From NCBI GenBank assembly GCA_016840245.1, contig JAEOST010000647.1, positions 1-12,772 of the forward strand: 12,772 bases of DNA, in the 5' to 3' direction. Position 1 is the stretch's first letter. Each line of letters begins with the position of its first letter. The stretch is from Candidatus Thorarchaeota archaeon (GTDB lineage: Archaea; Asgardarchaeota; Thorarchaeia; Thorarchaeales; Thorarchaeaceae). Below are positions 1,925 to 8,365 of this stretch, one piece after another. Both the position numbers and the translations under genes were made by a program. The notes under the pieces were generated by a model, which was not told where the DNA came from, ran no database searches, and worked only from the letters and a program-made list of their open reading frames with translations.

Positions 1925-2995
1925 TCACTCTGGTTTCATAATACAATCAATATCAATAGCCTGACTTACTATCTTGTCCACCATGGCAATCTTCTCTTTG
2001 TTCTCAGGAGTCACTGTCCCAATCAGATTGTCAACAATATGTCCAGTGGTGTACGTATCATGTGCAGTCATCATTATCGGAACATCCAGTTCCTTTGCTC
2101 TGGCAATAGTACGGATATCAGGACCCATCCCGCCTGTCAGAATGAGGAGATTTGTGTCGGTCTCAAGTGCAGCCAGACAGATATCTGCGCGGTCACCACT
2201 TGTGATGACAGCTTTGTCCTTTGCCCGTCTGAACCATTTGAGAGCGTTTTCAGGAGCCATGCTCCCAATGAGAAAATGATCAATGAGAACATCTAATTTC
2301 CCTTCACCAGTTACAATCTGTCCATCAATTGCACGAAGTATTTCTCTAACTGAGGGGCTAAAGAGTTCTCGTCGATGGTAAATAACACCGCATAATGGAA
2401 TTCCTAATTCCGTTAAAAATGGTTGAATCTCATTTTTGATTGTCTTCTTGAGCATTGGTGGGACCATATTCAGAATAATTGAGAATTGATCAACTCCATG
2501 TTGACTGAAATAATCCTTCATCATGATGATATCATCAATGGCAGTGATGTCAGTGAAGTTGACCAAGCATATTACGGATGCTTCAAACTCTTTTGCAATT
2601 GTTGCAGTTGATAATCCAATATGACTTAGATTCCAGGGAGCACGCATTCCCTCTATAACAACATAGTCTTTGTCTTCTGAGATGTCTTGGTAGCTCTTCT
2701 TCATTCTCTCAACTAGAGCATCCTTTCCAACTCGGATGAATTCATCAAAGGTTGCTTGAGTCTGAATAATTGGACAAATCACTCCAAGGTCCTGTTCCAT
2801 CTCAAGCATATCTTTCATAATAGCGGCATCCTCATCTACATCTTGATCAGGAGTGCTATGCGCGTAAGACTTGGTACCTACAGGTTTGAAATACCCGACC
2901 TTCATTCCTTGTGAACGTAGTTGCGATGATACTGCTAATGCCACCATCGTTTTTCCTGTAAGTGTTTCACCACTGATTACAATATTCTTCGCCAT
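1925..2995 (-). CDS. BioD-like phosphotransacetylase-family protein (P-loop AAA_26 + DRTGG domain)
   Basis: The 356-residue protein begins with a dethiobiotin-synthetase-like P-loop domain. The Walker A is GETLTGKT at 9-16, followed by GMKVGYFKPVGTKS at 30-43 and a YVVIEGMRAPW segment at 111-121. The C-terminal third, roughly 210-320, fits a DRTGG domain (LIGSMAPENALKWF, then GDRADI at 267-272, then LILTGGMGPD at 284-293). This two-domain arrangement matches the N-terminal part of long phosphotransacetylases but lacks the catalytic PTA domain, so it should not make acetyl phosphate by itself. It directly abuts the upstream ADP-forming acetate--CoA ligase (TAG immediately followed by ATG, with GGTGGTGA upstream as RBS). 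That points to a regulatory or cofactor-handling role in acetyl-CoA/acetate metabolism, a recurrent archaeal pairing whose biochemistry is not settled as far as I know. Confidence 0.85.
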   Translation of the reverse strand: MAKNIVISGETLTGKTMVALAVSSQLRSQGMKVGYFKPVGTKSYAHSTPDQDVDEDAAIMKDMLEMEQDLGVICPIIQTQATFDEFIRVGKDALVERMKKSYQDISEDKDYVVIEGMRAPWNLSHIGLSTATIAKEFEASVICLVNFTDITAIDDIIMMKDYFSQHGVDQFSIILNMVPPMLKKTIKNEIQPFLTELGIPLCGVIYHRRELFSPSVREILRAIDGQIVTGEGKLDVLIDHFLIGSMAPENALKWFRRAKDKAVITSGDRADICLAALETDTNLLILTGGMGPDIRTIARAKELDVPIMMTAHDTYTTGHIVDNLIGTVTPENKEKIAMVDKIVSQAIDIDCIMKPE

Positions 2996-5113
2996 CTATT
3001 CACCACCAATAGTCATCTTAACATCCACAGCTATTGCCCCTTTCCCTTTCTCATAGGAAAAGGCGGGATTAATATCTAATTCTACAATCTCCTCAAAATC
3101 AATCACTAGTTGACTTATTCTGAGAATTGTATCCTTTATAGCTTCAATATCACCGGGGAGTTCACCACGTACTCCTTTCAATAGAGTACTGATTCTTGTT
3201 TCCTCAATGAGGTCTATAGCATCACTTCGAGTCAAGGGAGCCAGTCTGAATGCAACATCCTTCAGAAAATTGACGTATATACCACCAGCTCCAAACATAA
3301 GCATAGGTCCAAATTGCACATCTCGTGAGCACCCGATAATTAGTTCTCGGCCTTTCTCAGCCATCTCCTGAACATCTACTCCATATACTACTGCTCGTGG
3401 AACATGAGTACGAACATTTTCAAGGATGCTAAGAAATGCATCTTCCACCTCTTCAGGGGACTCCAAACCAACTTTGATACCACCGATGTCGGTTTTGTGC
3501 ACAATATCCGGACTTGCAATCTTTAGGACAACTGGATAACCTATCTCAGTTGCAATCTCACGTGCTTCTTCAGAGCTGGTTGCCAGCCTAGTTTTAGCAA
3601 CACGGATACCATATGCCTCTGCTATTAGATGTGCCTCACTTCCCAGGAGGACACGACGTTCATCTTTCTTTACGAGGTCTATTATTTCTCGGACCTTATC
3701 TGTATCTACCTTGAATTTGGGTACAGTTTCGTCTCTAAGACTATCTCGACGCATTGTATAATTGTACAACTCAGCAATTGCATTTACTGCACGTTCAGGA
3801 AAATCAAATACCGGAATCCTGCCTGCATTCAGTACAACTCTTGGATATACCATTGTTTGGCCGCCCATAAAGACAGCAAGTAAGGGCTTATTCGGATACT
3901 TCTCACGAGAATCTACGAGAATTTGTGCAGTCTCTGTTGGTTTCGTCATTGCCTGTGGAGTAAGAAGAACTAATACTGAGTCAACATTTTCATCTTGCAG
4001 CGAGGCCTCAATGCATAGTGCATAATCCTGAGGTGTTGCTGTTCCCAAAGCGTCGATGGGATTGTAAACTGATGCAGCAGGAGGAAGTCCAGCCTTTAAT
4101 GATTCAATGGTCGCCTGTGTAAATTGAGCAATCTCTAGACCTGATGCTTCACACGCATCAGTAGTGATGATACCTGGACCGCCTGCATTAGTCACGATTG
4201 CGACTCGATTTCCAGCAGGCAGGTGCATATCATCGAAGACATTCGCTACATCGAATAGCTCAGCCATACCCTCCGCACGAATCACTCCACTTTGCTTGAA
4301 AGCAACATCATAGGCTGTATCGCTACCAGCTAATGAACCAGTATGAGAAGATGCGGCTCTGGCACCTGCAGCACTTACTCCTGACTTTACAATGAAAATC
4401 GGTTTATGAGGCGCTATTTTTCTACAGACTTCCATAAATCTGGGTCCATCAACAACTGATTCAATATAGAGGAGGATGAAGGTAGAATCAGGATCATTTC
4501 CAAAAGCTTCAATAAAATCAGCTTCGTTCAGATGTGATTTATTACCAAGACTTACAAACTTTGAGAATCCAATATTTTCCATAAGGCTCCAATCAAGAAT
4601 ACCAGTCATCAGAGCACCAGACTGCGAAGCAAAGGCAATAGATCCCTTCTTTGGAGTACCTGCAGCAAATGATGCATTATAAGGAGCAGAAGTGTTTACT
4701 ATTCCTAGACAATTTGGTCCTTGAATGACCATGTCATATTGTTCAGCAAGCTCTACAATTCTCTTCTCAGCCTGTTGTCCTTCATGACCAATTTCCTTGA
4801 AACCTGCAGTGATTATTACGAGCGCCTTGACACCTTTTTTTCCGCATTCTTCTACAACTGGTTGCACAAACTTCGCAGGTATTACAATAACAGCTACATC
4901 AACATCACTGTTGATTTCCGTTAATGATCGGTAGGTCTTCAGACCAAGAATCTCTCCACCCTTTGGATTCACAGGATAGATTTTGCCTGGATATCCACTA
5001 TCTATGAGATTCACTACAACAGAATTCCCAAGTTTCCCCTTCGTTGCGGAAGCTCCAACAACCGCAATTGAACGAGGGTTGAACAAAGTATCAATGCCTT
5101 TCTGCCGGTCCAA
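2996..5113 (-). CDS. Acetate--CoA ligase (ADP-forming), fused alpha-beta subunits
   Basis: This enzyme converts an acyl-CoA, ADP and Pi to the free acid, CoA and ATP, conserving energy by substrate-level phosphorylation in the cytosol. The 705 residues show the alpha part first: a CoA-binding Rossmann domain from FNPRSIAVVGAS (11-22), then two ligase-CoA domains with the phosphorylated histidine in SSHTGSLAGSD (H257) and the supporting glutamate in YIES (E218). The beta part is an ATP-grasp domain from about 465, with the second histidine in SPDIVHKTDIGG (H539), FGPMLMFGAGG near 601-611 and ELDINP at 678-683. The H257 and E218 positions match what I recall of the characterised archaeal ACD alpha subunit. 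The start codon is TTG, directly after an in-frame TAA, and no ATG lies near the conserved N-terminus; only a weak SD is visible. Substrate range (acetate versus branched or aryl acids) cannot be read from sequence. Also described as acd or acdAB fusion. Confidence 0.95.
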   Translation of the reverse strand: MDRQKGIDTLFNPRSIAVVGASATKGKLGNSVVVNLIDSGYPGKIYPVNPKGGEILGLKTYRSLTEINSDVDVAVIVIPAKFVQPVVEECGKKGVKALVIITAGFKEIGHEGQQAEKRIVELAEQYDMVIQGPNCLGIVNTSAPYNASFAAGTPKKGSIAFASQSGALMTGILDWSLMENIGFSKFVSLGNKSHLNEADFIEAFGNDPDSTFILLYIESVVDGPRFMEVCRKIAPHKPIFIVKSGVSAAGARAASSHTGSLAGSDTAYDVAFKQSGVIRAEGMAELFDVANVFDDMHLPAGNRVAIVTNAGGPGIITTDACEASGLEIAQFTQATIESLKAGLPPAASVYNPIDALGTATPQDYALCIEASLQDENVDSVLVLLTPQAMTKPTETAQILVDSREKYPNKPLLAVFMGGQTMVYPRVVLNAGRIPVFDFPERAVNAIAELYNYTMRRDSLRDETVPKFKVDTDKVREIIDLVKKDERRVLLGSEAHLIAEAYGIRVAKTRLATSSEEAREIATEIGYPVVLKIASPDIVHKTDIGGIKVGLESPEEVEDAFLSILENVRTHVPRAVVYGVDVQEMAEKGRELIIGCSRDVQFGPMLMFGAGGIYVNFLKDVAFRLAPLTRSDAIDLIEETRISTLLKGVRGELPGDIEAIKDTILRISQLVIDFEEIVELDINPAFSYEKGKGAIAVDVKMTIGGE

Positions 5114-5265: not shown

Positions 5266-5406
5266 ATGAAGCTGGTGACATTACACGTCCCTTCAACTTA
5301 CCTTCTTGGTTTGGAAAAGCTAGTTGATAGTAATCTGTATCCTAATCGAAGTGAAGCAATTAGAATTGCAATACGTGATTTGTTAAAGAAAGAACTTTGG
5401 GAATAG
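5266..5406 (+). CDS. CdrS-like short ribbon-helix-helix (CopG/MetJ-type) DNA-binding protein, copy 1
   Basis: The 46-residue protein is a minimal ribbon-helix-helix domain. MKLVTLHVP (1-9) is the DNA-contacting beta strand, helix 1 is YLLGLEKLVDS (12-22), and the LYPNRSEAIRIAIRDLLKKELW segment (24-45) is the turn plus helix 2 with the usual N-R-S-E-A-I-R signature. Such proteins act as dimers on short palindromic operators. The size and sequence pattern recall the haloarchaeal cell-division regulator CdrS, though that is resemblance and not proof. The start is ATG 5266-5268 because a perfect archaeal SD (GGTGAT, 5254-5259) stands before it; an in-frame extension to 5182 is rejected because the RHH strand begins at this methionine. 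It is followed 13 bp later by a near-identical copy and may also control the divergent ACD gene. Confidence 0.85.
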   Translation: MKLVTLHVPSTYLLGLEKLVDSNLYPNRSEAIRIAIRDLLKKELWE

Positions 5407-5419
5407 AGGTGGTCATAGA

Positions 5420-5560
5420 ATGAAGTTGGTTACATTGCATGTTCCAGAGCAGTATATTGATGGTCTTGAGAAGTTGGTTGAGTCCCGACTCTATCCAAAT
5501 AGATCCGAGGCAATCAGGATTGCTATTCGGGATCTATTAAAGAGAGAACTCTGGGGTTAG
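5420..5560 (+). CDS. CdrS-like short ribbon-helix-helix DNA-binding protein, copy 2
   Basis: This is a second 46-residue ribbon-helix-helix protein, identical to the first at 38 of 46 positions. The strand (MKLVTLHVP), the PNRSEAIRIAIRDLLK helix and the W45 position are all kept. Changes cluster at residues 10-14 (EQYID in place of STYLL) and 21-23. The DNA differs much more than the protein: six of the first nine codons are synonymously changed, so the duplication is old and the sequence is under purifying selection. The ATG is preceded by AGGTGGT (5407-5413). The two genes are almost certainly co-transcribed, and the products could form homo- or heterodimers with slightly different operator preference (inference). 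Confidence 0.85.
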   Translation: MKLVTLHVPEQYIDGLEKLVESRLYPNRSEAIRIAIRDLLKRELWG

Positions 5561-5709: not shown

Positions 5710-6666
5710 TTGAAATCTAACTCAATTATCCTAGGTGGGACTAAGAACGTTGTAACTCGACTTGTCAAAGGGTGTCCATGTTACAAGGAACTCGGTGATG
5801 AGAAGCTGTGTGTCAATGATGACGATGTCCTACCGATAAGGGCCATATCAGTGGACCCCTCGTTCTTCGCCAAGATTGACTGCGTTGACGACCTTTCTGA
5901 ATACAAAAGCGACAGTGCGAATATGTGCTACCTTCTTATCTACCTGGATGACGATAAGGACAATGTCTACTGCGTAAGTCGTGGAATAAGGCTTTACATA
6001 AACAATCAGGAAGTTAAGGCAGCAGATATCAAATCTGCATTGAACTTTGTTACATCAAAAGAGATGTCAACAAATGGAGTTGTTTGTTCATCCTGTCTAT
6101 ACAAGTATCTAGTAACTCTTGGCCATGTCTTTGATGACATATTCACAAAATCTGAGAGGGCTGAGATGATTGAAAACTATGTAAGAGAACTCTTCATCCA
6201 AATGGCGCTAGACCTCGGGGGAGGAAATGGAGAGGAGTTGACACAAGAGGAGAAATCAACCAGAATAATCCGAGAACAGATTGAGAAGCTAAATGCACAA
6301 AGAACTCTCTGGACTCAAAAGATAGCGGAAATACGTGAGTTGGAGGGTGTTGAAGAACTCCGTACATTGCTTGAGCACTATAACCAGCTATGCAGACTTG
6401 AAGCTGTATTTCTCCTTCAAGTAATGACTCTAAAGGATTCCACAGATCAATTCATTGCTCTAGGTCTCTTGAAGTTCATGGTTGAACTTTCAGAACATGT
6501 CCTTGAACTGAATAATAAGATACGAGAAACCACTCACATATTATATAGCCAAAATCGGATGCCTCAAGACATTCAAGAAATGTTGGACTTGAATGACAAT
6601 CATCGAAAGATGAGTGAATATAGATTCAGTAACCTTGTCAAACTCCTGAATCAGATTGAGGTATGA
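5710..6666 (+). CDS. Uncharacterised cysteine-cluster protein, paralogue A (318 aa)
   Basis: No known family recognised. The N-terminal part (residues 1-140) carries nine-residue-range motifs shared with the next gene: RLVKGCPCYK (C22, C24), GDEKLCVNDD (C34), NMCY (C73), YCVSRG (C88) and VCSSCLYK (C126, C129). These seven cysteines are conserved in the paralogue and suggest a zinc site or Fe-S cluster; C58 and C228 are not conserved. The C-terminal half (about 145-315) is predicted helical and charged, with likely coiled-coil stretches and a shared RLEAVFLLQ...LKDSTDQF...EHVLELNNKI pattern. There is no signal peptide or membrane segment, so it is probably cytosolic. The start is TTG with AGGA (5698-5701) 8 nt upstream. 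A stronger AAAGGAG lies at 5670-5676, but no canonical start follows it in frame. The gene lies downstream of two RHH genes and 95 bp before its paralogue. Confidence 0.85.
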   Translation: MKSNSIILGGTKNVVTRLVKGCPCYKELGDEKLCVNDDDVLPIRAISVDPSFFAKIDCVDDLSEYKSDSANMCYLLIYLDDDKDNVYCVSRGIRLYINNQEVKAADIKSALNFVTSKEMSTNGVVCSSCLYKYLVTLGHVFDDIFTKSERAEMIENYVRELFIQMALDLGGGNGEELTQEEKSTRIIREQIEKLNAQRTLWTQKIAEIRELEGVEELRTLLEHYNQLCRLEAVFLLQVMTLKDSTDQFIALGLLKFMVELSEHVLELNNKIRETTHILYSQNRMPQDIQEMLDLNDNHRKMSEYRFSNLVKLLNQIEV

Positions 6667-6673
6667 TGACACA

Positions 6674-6687
6674 ATAACTTCTATAAC
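6674..6687 (+). promoter_or_regulatory. Possible promoter or shared motif between the Cys-cluster paralogues
   Basis: The gap holds ATAACTTCTATAAC. Its first 11 bases (ATAACTTCTAT) recur exactly at 5170-5180 in the ACD/RHH divergent spacer, overlapping the GTTATAAC palindrome there. It contains a TATAAC core 75-80 bp ahead of the downstream start. It could be a promoter element or a shared regulator site; the evidence is only this coincidence. Confidence 0.25.
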
Positions 6688-6761
6688 GTCTAAAATCGTT
6701 TCATACAAGAGGAAATTTCAGGTTCAGGATCTGATATTAGAGCAATTTGGAGCATACAGTA

Positions 6762-7733
6762 TTGGTTTATGCACAAGATGAGAGCAATGGTCGTCAAGGC
6801 ACAATAAGACTTGTACGAGGTTGTCCCTGTTACAAGGTATTCGGTGACGAAAAGCTCTGCGTAAACGATGACAGCATTTTGGAAGTTGAATGCATTGAAA
6901 TCGATCCTGCAATTTTCGGATTCCACGACTCTAAACTATCAATGGAAGAAGAACAGGCGTCTGATGATAACGTATGCTATGCCTCAATATTCGTCAACTA
7001 TCCAGACAATAAGGTCTACTGTATTTCTCAGGGTTGGATGCTACGAATTCATGACAGGGACGTTCCTGGAGACGATTTAGAGGATGCCCTCCAATTCTTG
7101 TCCACAAAAGACCTGTCAGCAAGTGCAGAGATATGTAGCGAATGCCTGTACAAATTCTTGCTCACGTTGAGCGATACCTTCACAGATACCATGTCCCTTA
7201 AGGACAAGACAGACGAAGTAAAACGATACGTTGACAAATTCTCTTTGATGATTGCGGTGAAACACAGCCAGATGGATGGAATGAAGTCTATTGGCACTGA
7301 GGATGATATTGAAGAAGGGGTGGATCACTTTGCATTCCTTCGAAGCTACCTGGTTCAGCTATTAGATCAACAGAGTTACTGGTCCCAGTTTCATAATGAC
7401 CTGTTCAGAGAGGATGCAGAGGATTGGTTAATCAAACTTGTTGAAAGTAGACTACTCCTGACGCGACTTGAGTTTCAGTTCTATAGCCAGACATTGCAAC
7501 TGAGAGATACTGCAGATTTTCATATGCTGATCAAGTATCTCGGATATATTCTGAAGACGTCTGCACACGTGTTGAACATCAATCAAGAAATCCATGCTGA
7601 GATTCGTTCTGATCGGTTCAAGAAGCTAGTTGAATCAGAAAAACGATTCGACCAACTTGAATCGTATGCTGAAAAGAGTCGAACAGTTGAACATAACTTT
7701 GGAAACGTACTCCAAATTCTAAGCAGATTGTAA
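6762..7733 (+). CDS. Uncharacterised cysteine-cluster protein, paralogue B (323 aa)
   Basis: This is a tandem paralogue of the preceding gene, with no known family recognised. The same cysteine frame is kept with no gaps across the N-terminal region: RLVRGCPCYK, FGDEKLCVNDD, NVCY, YCISQG and ICSECLYKFL. All seven shared cysteines keep identical spacing. The C-terminal half is helical and more divergent but keeps an RLEFQFYSQ...LRDTADF...AHVLNINQEI pattern. The start is taken as TTG 6762-6764, with GGAG (6749-6752) 9 nt upstream; this also gives an N-terminus of the same length as paralogue A. A TTG at 6747 in the same frame (5 residues longer) is the alternative, limited by an in-frame stop at 6738-6740. 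It ends 50 bp from the convergent YkgJ gene. Role unknown; a metal-binding sensor or scaffold is conjecture. Confidence 0.85.
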   Translation: MVYAQDESNGRQGTIRLVRGCPCYKVFGDEKLCVNDDSILEVECIEIDPAIFGFHDSKLSMEEEQASDDNVCYASIFVNYPDNKVYCISQGWMLRIHDRDVPGDDLEDALQFLSTKDLSASAEICSECLYKFLLTLSDTFTDTMSLKDKTDEVKRYVDKFSLMIAVKHSQMDGMKSIGTEDDIEEGVDHFAFLRSYLVQLLDQQSYWSQFHNDLFREDAEDWLIKLVESRLLLTRLEFQFYSQTLQLRDTADFHMLIKYLGYILKTSAHVLNINQEIHAEIRSDRFKKLVESEKRFDQLESYAEKSRTVEHNFGNVLQILSRL

Positions 7734-7783: not shown

Positions 7784-8365
7784 CTAAGAGAGTGACTCAG
7801 AAATAGCTGTTTCAACATAACCCAAAGCGGTACACTCTCTCTGTGAGGTGTTCCACTTGTGTGCAATTTCTTTGAAATGCTCAAAATCACTCAATGGCTC
7901 TTTTGACAATACCAATAGTTCAGAATAGAGAATAACAGGACCTTCTTTCAGACCAGGACAAATCTCTCGTTTGGCATGAAGAGACCAAACAAGCTCGTTA
8001 TTCTCAGCTCTAAACACAAAAGGAAATGATGCACATACTGCAGGACGAATCGGATGAATCAGACAGAGGTTGTTATCGAGGAATATACATGACCCATCTT
8101 CGATCTTCTTCAATGCAACGTAGGCCATACCCTGTTCAGTCATAACCCGAGGAATCTGTCGGAGACCGTCAGGAATCGTCTGCCCCTCTGGAAGTACATA
8201 GAAATCGAGAGCTTTCAATAACTCTTTAGCTGACAATCCAAGACCGACACTTAATCGGGCAACATCTCGAGATGTGACTGTCACAATCATGTCAACTTGT
8301 TTACAACAAGCTCCACATTGTATGCATTCAAAGTGTATACCAGTATCCTCTGAAGCCAATATCAC
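7784..8365 (-). CDS. YkgJ-family CxxCxxCC metal-cluster protein
   Basis: The protein shows the zinc/iron-chelating YkgJ pattern: FECIQCGACCK (C14, C17, C20, C21), then GSCIFLDNNLCLIHPIRPAVCASFPF (C93, C101, C111) and a later C136. These eight cysteines are the usual ligand set; the family is annotated as Zn or Fe-S binding, and its biochemical role is mostly unknown. The rest is soluble and mixed alpha/beta, 193 residues, within the normal size range. The frame opens with GTG at 8363-8365, which sits directly on a GAGGTG sequence. A TTG two codons later (8357-8359) has that same GAGGTG five nucleotides ahead and may be the true start. It follows the aminotransferase gene by 29 bp on the same strand, so co-transcription is likely. 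Confidence 0.9.
   Translation of the reverse strand: MILASEDTGIHFECIQCGACCKQVDMIVTVTSRDVARLSVGLGLSAKELLKALDFYVLPEGQTIPDGLRQIPRVMTEQGMAYVALKKIEDGSCIFLDNNLCLIHPIRPAVCASFPFVFRAENNELVWSLHAKREICPGLKEGPVILYSELLVLSKEPLSDFEHFKEIAHKWNTSQRECTALGYVETAISESLS

Follow-up and report, generated by a model that had tools for sequence, protein, structure and literature searches.

Genes A and B, a tandem pair from a Candidatus Thorarchaeota archaeon, were found to share a mobile domain of about 120 residues, encountered in Asgard archaea only in the searches performed here. The domain occurs alone, after Arf GTPases, behind a part with seven predicted transmembrane helices (7TM), before a thioredoxin-like part (Trx) and in the Thorarchaeal proteins A and B. 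As the tentatively preferred explanation, which is held to be quite possible, it would be a cytosolic metal-binding accessory domain of Asgard small-GTPase and membrane signalling, with A and B as the partner subunits of the Thorarchaeal version. The features of the window, i.e. the whole stretch of 12,772 nucleotides that was analysed, are collected in Table 1.

Table 1. Positions of the genes and cysteine modules in the window.
Feature	Position	Strand	Description
RHH1	5266..5406	+	small gene of the ribbon-helix-helix type (CopG/CdrS-like); ATG 5266 gives 46 aa; frame open from TTG 5182 onwards; Pfam RHH_1 2e-5 (frame from 5182)
RHH2	5420..5560	+	second RHH gene of the tandem; 46 aa; identity to RHH1 84%
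Gene A	5710..6666	+	318 aa, TTG start; module and helical C-terminal region
Cysteine module of A	5743..6138	+	core Cys 22, 34, 73, 88, 126, 129; optional Cys 24; basis: alignments A5, A6
Gene B	6747..7733	+	328 aa from TTG 6747 (323 aa from TTG 6762); module and helical C-terminal region
Cysteine module of B	6792..7187	+	core Cys 26, 38, 77, 92, 130, 133; optional Cys 28 (numbered from 6747); basis: alignments A5, A6
CxxCxxCC (PF03692) gene	7784-8365	-	putative metal-chelating protein; convergent neighbour of B, downstream

Both open reading frames are intact and lie in tandem on the forward strand with 80 bases between them. An artefact or frame error was ruled out on account of the intact frames and of the relatives (161 for A and 227 for B at E ≤ 10) obtained from a set of 5.8 billion proteins. 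A and B were aligned by BLASTP at 29% identity (92/313 positions, E = 9e-52), and by this comparison they are tandem paralogues. The alignment is ungapped from residue 17 to residue 167 of A. The cysteines of A are at positions 22, 24, 34, 58, 73, 88, 126, 129 and 228 and those of B, numbered from the TTG at 6762, at positions 21, 23, 33, 44, 72, 87, 125 and 128. Seven of them are shared in identical register (22, 24, 34, 73, 88, 126 and 129 of A with 21, 23, 33, 72, 87, 125 and 128 of B), and the unshared C58 and C228 in A and C44 in B had been omitted from the sequence-only reading. All seven were invariant in alignments of 20/20 B and 21/21 A sequences, which were hand-chosen from the hit lists. 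The E-value of the BLASTP comparison and this invariance together place the shared register beyond chance. Conservation between A and B is lower in the C-terminal halves than in the cysteine part. The sequence-only reading had described seven common cysteines at the same ungapped spacing and a conserved cysteine core set against more divergent helical C-terminal regions, and both descriptions were borne out. Its seven-cysteine module is therefore real in A and B, but the core was found to comprise six cysteines and the domain to be Asgard-wide and mobile rather than specific to this pair.

Among the matches listed, B is more conserved than A, the best 120 of the 227 B relatives having 66-73% identity (one exception at 98%) and the best 120 of the 161 A relatives 42-61% (two exceptions at 98 and 92%). 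In these lists A and B each have their nearest match, at 98% identity, in a Thorarchaeota MAG, where the two proteins bear consecutive locus tags. Nearly all listed relatives are named 'hypothetical protein', and they are mostly assigned to Thorarchaeota, some to Lokiarchaeota, Hodarchaeota or 'Promethearchaeota' and one to Thermoplasmata, under which the B relative P0117 (71% identity) is filed. The source name 'TFIIIB Brf1' of one relative (P0085) was unsupported by the scans run here. A search with the module alignment returned 65 proteins, of which the named ones are all Asgard save one 'Bathyarchaeia' and one 'Zixibacteria' entry (P0266 and P0281). These two are probably mis-binned contigs, because they share 84% and 88% full-length identity with Heimdallarchaeota proteins. 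This search with the module alignment is based on shared words, and distant non-Asgard or eukaryotic relatives could escape it. For a virus origin, IMG/VR was scanned with the B alignment and yielded 16 pattern matches, none of which was confirmed as a relative.

The pair had been considered unrecognised, and this assessment held in all libraries searched, as no significant match was obtained in Pfam, NCBIfam, PHROGs, PADLOC or the PDB sequences. A and B gave no hit at E ≤ 1 in Pfam and PADLOC, a best value of 0.0042 in NCBIfam (16 bits against a cut-off of 405) and a best value of 0.074 in PHROGs. When 33 module rows were compared with Pfam, no family was matched by more than one member, and the Thioredoxin hits fell in the fused part. 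Among the PDB sequences profile A5 had no match at E ≤ 10, profile A6 a best value of 0.38 and profile A4 a best value of 0.18, the last in the helical region. The weak dGTPase and AgrC hits, a Cas4 chain from the PDB search and the single-member Pfam hits were set aside as chance. In a literature search no title or abstract was recognised as dealing with this domain; a study of Asgard Arf origins may already report the fusions described below, and the six-cysteine domain family is apparently undescribed.

The full-length A/B profile A3 matched in 67/227 genomes, including lineages beyond Thor. With the module profile A5, matches were obtained in 88/227 Asgard genomes (E ≤ 0.01) and none in the other 139; the broader A6 matched in the same number. 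The 88 genomes were sorted by us into 44 Thor-type genomes, a group of nine (G063-G071), 20 with Heimdall-type stand-alones, two groups of four (G183-G186 and G080-G083), a group of five (G084-G087 and G168), G014 and G062 (fragments). Near-identical proteins identify G067 as Heimdallarchaeota (99.7% to HZR80) and G168 as Freyarchaeota (99.5%), and G024 and G037 match Heimdallarchaeota KAS47 at 85-88% identity. In alignment A6, the 33 rows of which were drawn from the domain-bearing lineages, exactly seven columns are invariant (33/33 rows), namely the six cysteines and the proline after the first cysteine, and no polar residue other than the cysteines is invariant. Across 131 distinct near-full modules the cysteine columns hold 130, 131, 131, 131, 131 and 131 cysteines, and the second cysteine of the CxC is present in 93/131. 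As read from these alignments, the defining core is six cysteines, and the seventh, the second of the CxC, is optional.

Homology of the modules was examined with altered sequences scored against A5. The type-2 Arf, 7TM, Trx and L098/L112/L113 modules, which are outside the A5 model, reached 33.8-65.8 bits untouched and 3.5-24.5 bits after replacement of all cysteines by alanine; after shuffling of the non-cysteine residues they gave no score, except once 2.5 bits. Replacement of the cysteines costs the modules 28-45 bits. Because shuffling of the non-cysteine residues drops the score in all groups from 33.8-134.5 to at most 9.7 bits, the A5 match does not reflect cysteine spacing alone. Against the Thor-only profile A3 the untouched modules scored 2.4-12.4 (type-2 Arf), 1.0-30.0 (7TM) and 11.1-29.5 bits (Trx/L098-type). 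The replacement, shuffling and A3 scores thus support a homology that holds stepwise, in which the most distant modules rest heavily on their cysteines. In a FastTree phylogeny the 131 modules fall into one clade per architecture group, with two exceptions: Thor A/B, of which a few tips are intermixed, and the membrane type, from which the G014 protein (L120, five segments) stands apart; the Thor short group has a support of 0.56 only. The two types of Arf fusion were not found as sister groups in this tree, and since the intervening nodes have a support of 0.00-0.33, one and two fusion events cannot be told apart.

Arf-family GTPases with a C-terminal module in one open frame are of two types, each present in 8/9 of the genomes G063-G071 (type 1 in G063-G069 and G071, type 2 in G063-G067 and G069-G071). 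Pfam was run on one protein per type and gave Arf at 5.5e-44 for L046 (type 1) and 5.5e-37 for L092 (type 2). The fusions carry the P-loop (G1), switch I and DxGGQ (G3), by which they are Arf-family GTPases. The G4 motif is NKxD in type 1; HKSD in its place in type 2 (L092:4437-5435, L095:4395-5387 and L096:3857-4849) perhaps indicates an altered nucleotide choice. A G domain fused to the module was found in Heimdall-lineage proteins only, and in neither A nor B was a GTPase match obtained (a G domain with P-loop, DxGGQ and NKxD). A third, unlinked Thor paralogue, which also has a helical region, is adjoined by a Ras-type GTPase gene in 2/6 loci, at a distance between longest frames of 10 bp in L039 (Pfam Ras 7.4e-42) and about 560 bp in L040, and in the other 4/6 loci by no neighbour bearing GTPase motifs. 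Because GTPases are abundant in Asgard genomes, with 22-47 Arf-model matches in each of eight genomes, and no GTPase gene was recognised near A and B in the window, GTPase neighbourhood is weak evidence and only the fusions weigh much.

A membrane part followed by the module is encoded in 7/9 of the genomes G063-G071 (absent from G066 and G071). Seven transmembrane segments were predicted in 6/7 of these proteins; L121 gave six with the threshold applied. As loops 1, 3 and 5 are basic in L093, L094 and L122, the module of the membrane fusions is predicted and should be on the cytosolic side, where a metal fits better than disulphides. Close to the membrane fusion, a few genes away, a longin-type match was seen (Fuz_longin_1, 7.9e-6 in L121 and 0.0089 in L093). 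The six invariant cysteines, the absence of another invariant polar residue, the predicted cytosolic placement and the small size agree with a metal-held structural or binding domain, the metal of which, by analogy, would probably be zinc. The ArfGAP zinc finger is built as C-x2-C-x16/17-C-x2-C plus a catalytic arginine; the module differs from it in spacing, has no invariant arginine in A6 and gave no Pfam ArfGAP hit among the 33 rows.

The same cysteines could instead hold an iron-sulphur cluster or a switchable thiol or metal site, the redox state of which would be passed to the fused partner, be it a GTPase, a membrane protein or a thioredoxin-like part. This alternative is regarded as somewhat unlikely. 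It draws on the thioredoxin-like region that follows the module in L115-L119 (Thioredoxin_2 at 0.00013 in L116 and 0.00034 in L118, both below the curated cut-off) and on the thioredoxin-V4R genes adjoining the modules of L098, L112 and L113 (V4R at 4.4e-28, 8e-33 and 3.5e-32), and six cysteines with an optional seventh would suit the ligand set of a cluster. However, the fused thioredoxin-like part reads SGAPHC or SGAQKC and has no CxxC at the expected place, no iron-sulphur family was matched in the libraries searched, and the cysteine spacing of the module is not known to resemble a ferredoxin motif.

Wide variation of architectures and neighbours among lineages is what would be expected of a plain structural zinc domain, a scaffold reused in unrelated proteins, in which case A and B would have a separate job and no link to GTPases. 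Stand-alone module proteins are 119-165 aa in length, and a different helical part accompanies the module in L042, L043, L110 and L111. Beside the Heimdall-type stand-alones of L049, L050, L052-L055, L057 and L061 lies not a GTPase gene but a gene of 1259-1484 aa with a TrmB HTH and a coiled coil (Pfam, L049 and L052), and near A and B, too, no GTPase was recognised. This explanation is nevertheless considered unlikely in view of the two Arf fusions and the membrane fusion within the same genomes, the Ras-type GTPase neighbour of the third paralogue and the V4R neighbours. In Jord/Frey-type loci, large genes with a similar 'ILVGDGxTGI' start and no Pfam family adjoin the module (L098:1366-4458 and L116:780-2645); by eye they are possibly longin-like.

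Two matches sharing a strand and separated by less than 400 bp were present in 38/44 Thor-type genomes with a match, and the co-occurrence of both paralogues in related genomes, named in the sequence-only reading as support for a new family, was thereby observed. A survey for RHH genes covered 38/44 Thor-type genomes (G194, G208, G209, G211, G214 and G216 were left out). In 35/38 an RHH gene of 45-46 aa lies upstream in the same orientation, at a distance of less than 400 bp, and in the remaining three the sequence stretch ends at A or 445 bp before A. The order in the 38 loci was RHH, A, B wherever A and B were distinguishable; odd loci are G192, where RHH and B stand without A, G008, where RHH is accompanied by an A at the contig end, and G217, both genes of which are nearer B. 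Identity to the RHH copy of the window is 77-91%, higher than the 25-63% of A (best segment), and the RHH protein resembles the RHH domain of NikR (2bj1, E = 0.002). Two tandem RHH copies are present in the window, against a single copy in each of the other Thor-type loci inspected. RHH antitoxins exist, and a toxin-antitoxin reading of the RHH gene with A and B was set aside, as the cluster order is kept in 35/38 of the Thor-type genomes surveyed.

RHH paralogues lie directly upstream of ftsZ in 5/8 Asgard genomes (G001, G003, G007, G086 and G185; not G024, G064 and G067); in G001, G003 and G007 they are also found in divergent orientation to a Ras-type GTPase gene (Pfam Ras 2.3e-49 in G003). 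They adjoin other genes as well, and their position near ftsZ and the GTPase gene is a lead to shared control, not proof of it. In L158 a CdrS-like RHH gene (2236-2424) is followed by ftsZ (2432-3736), an arrangement known from haloarchaea. In excerpts of PMC7439475 and PMC8406309, CdrS is described as a small RHH regulator beside ftsZ2 in haloarchaea, and in those of PMC7439475 its likeness to the RHH domain of NikR is reported. The window RHH is likewise a short, NikR-like RHH_1 protein, with the ftsZ-adjacent Asgard copies as its paralogues; unlike CdrS, it precedes A and B and not ftsZ, and its putative likeness to haloarchaeal CdrS is drawn from the RHH_1 match, the NikR resemblance and the ftsZ-adjacent paralogues. 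That the RHH gene, A and B constitute a regulator cluster in transcription or cell division, with A and B as co-regulators or as products controlled with ftsZ, would agree with the highly conserved RHH neighbour, with the CdrS-like position of its paralogues and with the TrmB-HTH coiled-coil gene beside the Heimdall-type stand-alones, but is highly improbable given that no DNA-binding domain was recognised in A or B with any of the libraries (Pfam, NCBIfam, PHROGs, PADLOC) and that the RHH paralogues adjoin other genes too, so that the link may mean shared control only.

The PF03692 product encoded downstream of B, with a CxxCxxCC putative zinc/iron-chelating domain, is cysteine-rich like A and B, but these have no profile match to PF03692. 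Its cluster was present in 32/62 stretches compared, several of which come from the same genomes. Elsewhere in the window, two ORFs on the reverse strand (362-634 and 636-893) belong to cluster c5, the former assigned by position and not clustered. In L001, L003 and L007 this cluster is represented by two ORFs (85-90 aa), in L004-L006 by a single ORF of 175-184 aa, which is a gene split or fusion.

In the preferred reading, a metal-binding accessory domain of GTPase and membrane signalling, A and B would be Thorarchaeal paralogues built on the six-cysteine domain, which would fold around one or two bound metal ions, with zinc as the first choice, and act in the cytosol. The recurrent partners, i.e. 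Arf GTPases, the Ras-type GTPase neighbour, V4R and membrane helices, suggest that the domain plays an accessory role in membrane signalling linked to GTPases, serving as a protein-protein or regulatory part that Asgard lineages would attach to small GTPases and membrane proteins. Moreover, the constant pairing and order suggest that A and B may form a heteromer, either via their modules or via their helical C-terminal regions. Both would be expressed from a single cluster preceded by an RHH regulator of the CdrS type and may act in GTPase- or membrane-linked signalling. Against this reading speak the lack of a recognised GTPase gene near A and B in the window, the 4/6 third-paralogue loci and the Heimdall-type stand-alones without a GTPase neighbour, the 139/227 genomes that gave no match and the dependence of the most distant modules on their cysteines. 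In a more far-reaching version, which is judged clearly improbable, the domain would be the coupling part of an undescribed Asgard signalling relay: the seven-helix membrane proteins and the Arf GTPases would meet through the cytosolic module in one Heimdallarchaeota lineage, and the Thor A-B pair would be its soluble form with two subunits, controlled by a regulator of the CdrS type that is tied to the ftsZ regulon. If true, the relay would be a receptor-to-small-GTPase link predating eukaryotes.

Fusions of Asgard small GTPases with longin or roadblock domains are described in PMC10933270, in excerpts of which no other partners are named. These proteins likewise combine a small GTPase with an extra accessory domain; the partner found here differs in being a six-cysteine domain without a Pfam match. 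According to the same excerpts, Asgard V4R/TRAPPC3 proteins of the trafficking type bind zinc via four cysteines; V4R genes adjoin some of the modules, yet the module itself has no V4R match. The domain is therefore best placed, as a kind, as a variant of the GTPase-associated accessory domain, and no new fold is claimed. A and B are a conserved gene pair in Thorarchaeota, and the domain offers small, expressible proteins for probing archaeal GTPase regulation. It would supply a family for several hundred database entries, most of them nameless. Finally, the presence of a domain of no known family on Arf GTPases and on predicted seven-helix proteins in the same genomes hints at an unknown component of signalling in those archaea that are most closely related to eukaryotes.
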